Made by a program: the position numbers and the translations under genes
DNA from: Comamonadaceae bacterium
Lineage (GTDB): Bacteria; Pseudomonadota; Gammaproteobacteria; Burkholderiales; Burkholderiaceae_C
Length of the DNA stretch: 49,500 nucleotides
Direction: 5' to 3'
NCBI GenBank assembly: GCA_013823485.1
Contig: PNMF01000005.1
Coordinates: 1 to 49,500 of the forward strand
The notes under the pieces: generated by a model
The model's input: only the letters and a program-made list of their open reading frames with translations
Told to the model about the DNA's origin: nothing
Database searches by the model: none
Shown: positions 36,668 through 39,230 of the stretch, in pieces
Layout: every line of letters starts with the position of its first letter
Numbering within the stretch: position 1 is the stretch's first letter

Positions 36668-36811
36668 ATGTCACAACGGACATCCATATCCGGCCTGACG
36701 GACGACGAGGCTCAGGAGTTCCACCAGTACTACATGCAAGGCTTTGTGGGTTTCACGGCGATTGCCGTGGTGGCCCACCTGCTGGTGTGGTTCTGGCGGC
36801 CCTGGCTCTGA
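36668..36811 (+). CDS. pufB: LH1 light-harvesting beta polypeptide
   Basis: 47 residues (too short for the ORF track): [20 protein letters not shown] then [14 protein letters not shown]. The [10 protein letters not shown]-terminus, the BChl-ligating His in AHLLVW and the WRPWL end are diagnostic of LH1 beta. A strong AGAAGGAG lies upstream. Forms the LH1 ring around the reaction centre with PufA. Confidence 0.97.
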
Positions 36812-36849
36812 TTCCATAGCCCAACCCAACCGATGAGTGGAGAACTGCC

Positions 36850-37074
36850 ATGAACGACCTGACTTTTGCGGCCCAGAAGGCATCACGCAAGGAAGACAAG
36901 CTGTCTTTCCTGCTGATCTTTGCGCCCTGTTTCCTGCTGCTGCTGTCTCTTGCCGTGCTGGGCCAACTCGTTGGCCTGCATTGGCAAGTGTGGCTGCCAG
37001 GGGCGGAGCACAAGGCCAGCATCTTTTCGGGCGTCCACGCGGCGGTCTACACCCTCATGTCTCACATCATCTAA
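36850..37074 (+). CDS. Small single-TM protein between pufB and pufA, unassigned
   Basis: 74 residues with GGAG 8 bases before the ATG and AAGGAG for pufA at its end, so it looks properly translated. A basic N-terminus (KASRKEDK) is followed by one long hydrophobic helix (~19-45, LSFLLIFAPCFLLLLSLAVL) and LHWQVWLPG, then an amphipathic tail ending YTLMSHII. The LHWQVW segment resembles the AHLLVW pigment-binding end of PufB, but without Ala at -4. Size and operon position also recall PufQ, though pufQ normally precedes pufB and I cannot match its motifs. Candidate LH1/reaction-centre accessory or assembly subunit. That it is a gene is well supported; its role is not. Confidence 0.8.
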   Translation: MNDLTFAAQKASRKEDKLSFLLIFAPCFLLLLSLAVLGQLVGLHWQVWLPGAEHKASIFSGVHAAVYTLMSHII

Positions 37075-37086
37075 GGAGCACACATC

Positions 37087-37293: not shown

Positions 37294-37334
37294 GCAGGTG
37301 CCGGTCCGTCACAACGGGCCGGTCCGGCACCTGC
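37294..37334 (+). promoter_or_regulatory. pufA-pufL intercistronic hairpin
   Basis: GCAGGTGCCGG (37294-37304) and CCGGCACCTGC (37324-37334) form a perfect 11-bp stem with a 19-nt loop in the pufA-pufL gap. Such structures protect the pufBA segment from 3' exonuclease, giving more LH1 than reaction-centre mRNA. It has no T-run, so it is a processing/stability element rather than a full terminator. Confidence 0.85.
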
Positions 37335-37396: not shown

Positions 37397-38236
37397 ATGG
37401 CTATGCTCAATTTTGAAAAGAAATACCGGGTTCGAGGCGGGACCTTGGTAGGCGGCGACCTGTTCGATTTCTGGGTGGGGCCGTTCTATGTCGGCTTCTT
37501 CGGCGTGACGACCCTGTTCTTCACGCTCCTGGGCACCGCGATGATCCTCTGGGGTGCATCGCAGGGACCGACCTGGAACCTCTGGCAGATCAGCATCGCG
37601 CCCCCCGATCTTTCCTACGGCCTGCGCTTCGCGCCGCTGATGGAAGGCGGCCTGTGGCAGCTCATCACCGTCTGCGCCCTCGGCGCCTTCGGCTCATGGG
37701 CACTGCGAGAAGTCGAGATCTGCCGAAAACTCGGCATGGGCTACCACGTGCCTGTGGCCTTCTCGGTGGCCATCCTGGCGTACTTCACCCTGGTGGTGGT
37801 GCGGCCGGTGCTGCTGGGCGCCTGGGGACACGGCTTCCCCTACGGCATCTTCAGCCACCTGGACTGGGTCTCCAACGTGGGCTACCAGTACCTGCACTTC
37901 CACTACAACCCGGCGCACATGCTGGCGGTCAGCTTCTTCTTCGCCACCACCTTCGCGCTCTCGCTGCACGGCGCCCTGGTGCTGTCGGCCACCAACCCGG
38001 CGCCCGGCACCGAAGTGAAGACGCCCGAACACGAAGACACCTTCTTCCGCGACATCATCGGCTACTCGGTGGGCACCCTGGGCATCCACCGGCTGGGCCT
38101 GTTCCTGGCGCTGGCGGCCGTGCTGTTCAGTGCCCTGTGCATCGTCATCAGCGGTCCGTTCTGGAGCCGTGGATGGCCCGAGTGGTGGGGCTGGTGGCTG
38201 AACCTGCCCATCTGGTCGCAGTGGCCGCTGACCTAA
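37397..38236 (+). CDS. pufL: Photosynthetic reaction centre subunit L
   Basis: 279 residues from ATG 37397 with ACAGGAGGG upstream. Five TM helices. Markers: [42 protein letters not shown] (special-pair/accessory BChl histidines) and [16 protein letters not shown] (iron-site histidine). Binds the special pair, bacteriopheophytin and QA/QB region with PufM. Confidence 0.98.
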
Positions 38237-38252
38237 CCCCAGGGAGAACACC

Positions 38253-39230
38253 ATGGCGCAATACCAGAACCTCTTCACCACGGTCCAGGCCGTGGGCCCG
38301 CTGCACCACGGCGTGCCGCTGGGACACGGCAACAGCCCGCGCACCGGCAAGGTGCCGGCCATCGTCCACCTGTTCGGTCGCCTGGGCAACGCCCAGATCG
38401 GACCGATCTACCTGGGCGGCCTTGGCCTGGCCTCGCTGATCCTCGGACTGCTGGCTTTCAACATCATCGGCTTCAACATGCTGGCCTCGGTCAATTACGA
38501 CCCGATCCAGTTCGTGCGCCAGCTCTTCTGGCTGTCGCTGGAGCCCCCGGGACCGGAAAACGGCCTGGGCCTGGCACCGCTCAACCAGGGCGGCTGGTGG
38601 CAGATCGTCGGCTCGTTCCTGACCGTCTCCATCCTGCTGTGGTGGGCCCGCACCTACCGCCGCGCCCGCGAGCTGGGCATGGGCACCCACGTGCCATGGG
38701 CCTTTGCGGCGGCCATCTGGCTGTTCCTGGTGCTGGGCCTCTTCCGCCCGGTGCTGATGGGCAGCTGGGCCGAGGCCGTGCCCTTCGGCATCTTCCCCCA
38801 CCTGGACTGGACGGCCGCCTTCAGCCTGCGCTACGGCAACCTGTTCTACAACCCGTTCCACGCGCTCTCCATCGCCTTCCTGTACGGCTCCACCCTGCTG
38901 TTCGCGATGCACGGCGCCACCATCCTGGCGGTCGGCCGCTACGGCGGTGAACGCGAGATCGAGCAGATCACCGACCGCGGCACCGCCAGCGAGCGCGCTG
39001 CCCTGTTCTGGCGCTGGACCATGGGCTTCAACGCCACCATGGAATCCATTCACCGCTGGGCCTGGTGGTTCGCGGTGCTGTGCCCGCTCACCGGCGGCAT
39101 CGGCATCCTGCTGACCGGCACCGTGGTGGACAACTGGTACCTGTGGGCGATCAAGCACGGCGTGGCGCCGCCCTACCCGGCCGTCTTCCCCGAGGTCATG
39201 GACCCGGCCCTCATGAACGGAGGCAAGTGA
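38253..39230 (+). CDS. pufM: Photosynthetic reaction centre subunit M
   Basis: 325 residues. [20 protein letters not shown] at the N-terminus; [22 protein letters not shown] and [21 protein letters not shown] for the BChl and iron ligands; [16 protein letters not shown] in the last helix. Partner of PufL. The stop overlaps pufC as ATGA-type, coupling cytochrome synthesis. Confidence 0.98.

Follow-up and report, generated by a model that had tools for sequence, protein, structure and literature searches.

A gene between pufB and pufA of phototrophic Burkholderiales encodes a diverged paralog of the LH1 beta polypeptide and probable non-pigmented component or assembler of the photosynthetic core

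Here, we analyze a small gene that lies between the genes for the two LH1 polypeptides in a Comamonadaceae bacterium. The window, i.e., the whole stretch of 49,500 nucleotides of contig PNMF01000005.1 (assembly GCA_013823485.1), carries on its + strand the gene order pufB - ORF - pufA - pufL - pufM - pufC, with the following features in and around the antenna genes:

36668-36811, + strand: pufB, LH1 beta, short form (NCBIfam NF040862 equivalog, 2.8e-25; Pfam LHC, 5e-14)
36839-36842, + strand: GGAG ribosome box of the ORF, read from the sequence, 7 nt before the ATG
36850-37074, + strand: gene of the ORF2/ORF74 family, 74 codons, ATG start; Q39 replaces the BChl-ligand His, and the tail, residues 50-74, is conserved
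37073-37078, + strand: AAGGAG ribosome box of pufA, read from the sequence, starting inside the ORF stop codon
37087-37278, + strand: pufA, LH1 alpha (NCBIfam NF040861 equivalog, 4.7e-18)
37294-37334, + strand: strong pufA-pufL intergenic hairpin (folding energy of the region, -48.6 kcal/mol)
37397-38236, + strand: pufL, reaction-centre L subunit, its end being that of the enclosing frame

The initial annotation of this DNA had proposed that a 74-residue ORF with good ribosome binding sites separates pufB from pufA. The ORF does lie at 36850-37074, flanked by both equivalogs, with the GGAG box ahead of its ATG and the AAGGAG box of pufA at its stop codon, and its conservation (see below) sets it well apart from a chance reading frame. 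Across the family, ribosome boxes are far stronger than random sites; the mean anti-SD pairing energy is -8.2 kcal/mol for pufB, -6.8 kcal/mol for the ORF, and -7.6 kcal/mol for pufA vs. -2.2 kcal/mol at random sites. Further downstream in the window, the stop codon of pufM runs into the start codon of pufC (TGATG, 39228-39230), and the small ORF77, which Roseateles locus tags place between pufM and pufC, is absent.

The gene had been described as uncharacterized, and indeed no function is on record; however, it is not unseen, because it has already been recorded as ORF2 and as ORF74. In Rubrivivax gelatinosus, the puf operon of which was described in 1994, "ORF2" lies upstream of pufA (Nagashima 1994, as relayed by PMC12817894). 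It is the same gene, with 74 codons and a place between pufB and pufA, and the two R. gelatinosus loci that we fetched (L070, L075) match the ORF over its full length with 47-49 % identity. "ORF74" of Roseateles depolymerans lies between pufB and pufA by its locus tags (PMC10037100), and we judge it to be the same gene by place and length. PMC12817894 compared ORF2 only with alpha polypeptides, pointed out the missing His, and concluded, after testing such a derivation, that ORF2 is not the source of Gemmatimonas pufA2. Both papers leave the gene without a function; here, it is read as a paralog of pufB. In the open literature, we found no paper stating what ORF2/ORF74 is, so that an older mention of similarity to beta polypeptides is possible.

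The earlier reading had hung on the presence of the ORF in close relatives and had pointed to Rubrivivax, to which, as described above, conservation extends. The ORF is found in 15 other genomes of the window's genus with 69-92 % identity (92 % in the closest copy, that of Hydrogenophaga sp. IBVHS2, and 69-81 % in the other members), and identity to copies in other families is about 32-47 %. A scan of a species collection gave 233 stretches encoding the ORF, from which 80 loci were kept, among them those of Rubrivivax gelatinosus, R. benzoatilyticus, Hydrogenophaga flava, Limnohabitans, Piscinibacter, and Methylibium. Wherever the locus was read, the ORF sits between pufB and pufA, and its product nearly always has 73-77 aa. 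A search of a plasmid collection gave no match. Comparisons among members of the genus give a dN/dS of about 0.16-0.18, with 0.25 for the N-terminus and 0.14 for the helix and tail. W45, P50-E53, V62, V66, Y67, and M70 are invariant over 38 diverse members, and the tail is the most conserved part of the protein. This purifying selection on amino acids, together with the invariant residues, argues against the idea that the ORF is a coupling device, the translation of which feeds ribosomes to pufA while the peptide is unimportant. In 78 of 101 loci, the ribosome box of pufA does start within, and thus overlaps, the stop codon of the ORF, as such a device would have it; we nevertheless consider this explanation hardly credible.

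Some of the loci deserve separate mention. At L021, L137, L141, and L144, the operons are otherwise typical, but their PufB and PufA clearly belong to another type (NPSGLTDEECQEFH..., MWRYWRIVDPRKAII...), and the ORF is still kept between them, which suggests that the antenna genes were replaced around a retained ORF. The pufB of Piscinibacter aquaticus KACC 15278 (L078) ends in ...LVWAPAPLALN in place of ...LVWAWRPWL, probably because of a frameshift or sequencing error at its 3' end. Finally, Burkholderiales-type puf operons occur in metagenome-assembled genomes titled "Candidatus Fonsibacter lacus" (L059) and "Bordetella parapertussis" (L097); these records are probably mis-binned or mis-titled.

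Several comparisons relate the ORF protein to PufB. First, in searches of the PDB, the best matches are LH1 beta chains, whether the query is the window protein (phmmer, 4.8e-7), the R. gelatinosus copy (2.8e-10), or the family profile (5e-14). No PDB chain matched is the ORF protein itself, and the closest reaction-centre L chain, 9m8m_L, is not from a close relative. Second, hhalign aligns the ORF profile to the PufB profile at 99.6 % (E 3.2e-24), and to PufB cut before the tail at 97.5 %, with a score of 56.6 vs. a maximum of 29.2 in the nulls, for which columns were shuffled 100 times within the N-terminus, the helix, and the C-terminus. Third, a divergent ORF member matches the pufB model at 1.9e-10. 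No family member reaches the curated pufB cut-off, the best scoring 40.5 of 61 bits, and the window protein matches no family in Pfam and NCBIfam. Because the protein lacks the ligand His, the N-terminal signature, and a match above the model cut-off, we file it not as PufB but as a PufB-derived paralog. Judged by its sequence, the ORF protein is a paralog that diverged from PufB, with long-tailed PufB as the nearest form, and this relation is far firmer than could be known when it was first suspected. An origin from PufA (LH1 alpha) was also considered and rejected (profile 9 %, E 0.0037, inside the shuffled nulls).

The initial annotation had also entertained a relocated PufQ, a regulator of tetrapyrrole flux that binds ferrochelatase. 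PufQ (PF05398) resembles the ORF protein in length (72-74 aa), in having one TM helix, and in belonging to the puf operon, and the ORF profile scores 25.1 against the PufQ profile, above all 100 column-shuffled nulls (maximum 20.9). However, this similarity amounts to 46 % (E 2e-4), is confined to the N-terminal half (the first 40 residues), and is far weaker than that to PufB, to which PufQ is not detectably related by profile comparison. Moreover, the PufQ gene lies between bchZ and pufB, while the ORF follows pufB in the loci read, and a search with PF05398 found neither a match to the ORF protein nor a PufQ above cut-off in the genome. PufQ is therefore unsupported, and we regard this identity as very improbable.

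An alignment of 104 PufB and 101 ORF sequences, in which the BChl-ligand His is position 0, indicates what the ORF family has lost and what it has retained. The ligand His is present in 104/104 PufB sequences and in 2/101 ORF sequences, the latter having Gln in 80, Lys in 7, Thr in 6, and Leu or Ala in a few. The His at -18 is likewise found in all 104 PufB sequences and in none of the 101 ORF sequences, and the N-terminal signature SGLT...EFH of PufB is lost in the ORF family. By contrast, residues of the beta-type helix are retained, i.e., Ala at -4 (95/101), G/A at -1, Trp at +6 (101/101), and Trp at +9 (93/101). All 101 ORF sequences continue after the helix with PGAE, which begins the conserved tail PGAE...GVkaAVYtfMS. 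In the window, W45 and W48 of the ORF protein align with the PufB residues W(+6) and W(+9), and PufB itself has its pigment-ligand His37 intact and ends without a tail in RPWL. The likeness that had been seen between LHWQVWLP in the ORF protein and AHLLVWFW in PufB is thus out of register: H44 falls at +5 and is not conserved, and the place of the pigment His is taken by Q39. Gln can ligate chlorophyll in other proteins, so that a weak pigment site is possible in most ORF members; however, Lys, Thr, Leu, and Ala at this place in other members argue against a general pigment in the family.

The single TM helix and amphipathic C-terminal helix proposed at the outset are plausible. The AlphaFold model has helices at 5-48 and 59-73, and for the window protein, 1.3 % of shuffles attain the hydrophobic moment of the tail (family median 4 %). 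With a mean pLDDT of only 65 and no Foldseek match to the model, AlphaFold lends no structural support to a beta fold.

In some genomes that lack the ORF, PufB itself carries the tail. Among 399 genomes sampled in the order Burkholderiales, the 45 with pufL form the phototrophic set. A short PufB together with the ORF is found in 37 of these, including G110. Five genomes (G088, G308, G338, G234, and G221) have a long-tailed PufB, the tail of which aligns with the ORF tail, and no ORF; in these five, the ORF profile matches nothing except the long PufB. The remaining three belong to a single genus; their PufB is short, no ORF lies between pufB and pufA, and a small beta-like protein of another kind is encoded upstream of pufB. 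With the 36 ORF genomes other than G110, Fisher's test of ORF vs. long tail gives p of about 5e-5, kinship being ignored. Both states, a long PufB and a short PufB with the ORF, are present within a single genus (g30). Long-tailed LH1 beta polypeptides (PDB 8z81_B, 9m8m_B, and 7xxf_B; Burkholderiales G088, G234, and G221) share with the ORF protein the beta helix with W+6 and W+9, and those of Burkholderiales also share the same tail, PG..GxxSMxxGvKAA; unlike the ORF protein, all retain both His residues (the BChl ligand and the one at -18) as well as the SGLT...EFH signature. In the tree, the ORFs form one clade (100/100), which stands next to the long PufBs of one family (f30) at a weak node (85/79) based on few columns. 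The 37/5/3 split and the aligned tails suggest that a long PufB was duplicated and its halves shared out. The simplest account of these sequences seems to be a single duplication of a long PufB, after which one copy lost the tail and the other lost the pigment site.

A second small beta-like protein of 75-82 aa is encoded upstream of pufB in two gammaproteobacterial genomes (L157/L186 in G482 and L158/L173 in G575) and in one Burkholderiales genus (L133, L134, and L136; G274, G243, and G127). Pfam and NCBIfam give no meaningful match for it, and it is not clearly related to PufQ. It resembles the ORF protein in its profile similarity (98 % to both the ORF and PufB; alignment A6), in having a tail, and in lacking the N-terminal signature of PufB; it differs in lying before rather than after pufB, in its tail motif, and in forming a separate clade (98/93).

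The place of the ORF in the operon bears on its amount. In Roseateles depolymerans, ORF74 is transcribed with pufBA as the major, abundant 1-kb puf mRNA, and pufB, ORF74, and pufA are the three genes most reduced upon deletion of the sigma factor SP70 (PMC10037100). In about 100 relatives, strong folds occur in the same place between pufA and pufL (median -51.4 kcal/mol for 130 nt), and the hairpin in the window is the probable 3' boundary of an abundant pufB-ORF-pufA mRNA. Because the ORF is encoded between beta and alpha, upstream of this strong hairpin, its product should be plentiful.

Altogether, these findings point to the ORF protein as probably a non-pigmented constituent of the photosynthetic core complex or a helper in building it, and a candidate subunit of LH1 or the reaction centre, or an assembly factor, remains the best of the roles originally proposed. 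More specifically, we give about even chances to a model in which it is a non-pigmented LH1 beta paralog that acts as a beta-like subunit or assembly partner of RC-LH1 and supplies the tail in trans. By homology, it would insert into the membrane like beta, with the N-terminus in the cytoplasm and the tail in the periplasm. Its beta-type helix would pack against LH1 beta or the reaction centre without BChl a of its own, and its amphipathic tail may act in trans as the tail of long PufB would in cis, by assisting in the construction or closure of the LH1 ring.

PufX, protein-W, protein-Y (also called U), and LH1 gamma, all small non-pigmented membrane subunits of RC-LH1, resemble the proposed ORF product in role and serve as a working analogy only. 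They also differ from it: protein-W has three helices, in Rhodopila, gamma peptides and beta have opposite orientations (PMC9640540), and the gamma genes of Blastochloris lie outside the photosynthesis cluster (PMC9788563). By this analogy, the ORF protein might be a single-copy subunit that, like PufX or protein-W, replaces a pigmented alpha-beta pair and leaves a gate for quinones. A pigment-free beta-like helix could end a ring, and unrelated gap proteins occur in other RC-LH1 complexes (PMC10214105, PMC7806223). However, the ORF is situated with the abundant antenna genes, unlike pufX, which is found downstream of pufM (PMC6052148), and pufW, which has a separate locus, and some lineages with long PufB manage without the ORF. 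Given this placement of the gene, a single-copy gap protein is less likely, and we consider this role improbable.

The beta-like helix and tail might instead accompany beta, alpha, or pigment on the way into the growing ring and depart afterwards, much as a beta propeptide acting in trans. In Rps. palustris, 13 C-terminal residues of beta are missing through cleavage (PMC7806223), so that the tail may serve assembly only, and this observation fits an assembly role too. This idea also agrees with the tail being the most conserved part of the protein and with the ORF being kept where PufB and PufA differ in type. Against it, the place in the antenna segment and the good ribosome boxes suggest bulk amounts, and the helix-packing residues of beta are retained. 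We hold such a transient factor to be possible but doubtful. For the trans-acting beta-like partner, the location of the gene within the antenna segment, ahead of the pufA-pufL hairpin, favors a lasting subunit of RC-LH1 over a transient partner and several copies over one. Counted against this best reading are the three short-PufB genomes without the ORF, the weak node that joins the ORFs to long PufB, the low confidence of the AlphaFold model, and the evolutionary distances of the ORF, which correlate most with those of PufL and hardly with those of PufA once PufL is allowed for, a correlation that is weak and confounded by kinship.

Our analysis offers a testable identity for an ORF that has lacked an explanation since the R. 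gelatinosus puf operon was described in 1994 and that is present in 37 of 45 phototrophic Burkholderiales genomes sampled, a classic model organism included. The occurrence of the tail in cis (long PufB) and in trans (short PufB plus ORF), both within one genus, amounts to a natural experiment on the LH1 beta tail. Tentatively, and with somewhat less than even confidence, we suggest that betaproteobacterial RC-LH1 may contain a third subunit from the antenna operon, a pigment-free beta paralog that arose from a duplicated long PufB, with pigment site and tail divided between the copies and the tail acting in trans, a composition absent from any solved structure. Should the ORF protein prove to belong to RC-LH1, the phototrophic Burkholderiales, a large group, would have a core-complex subunit that has gone unrecorded.
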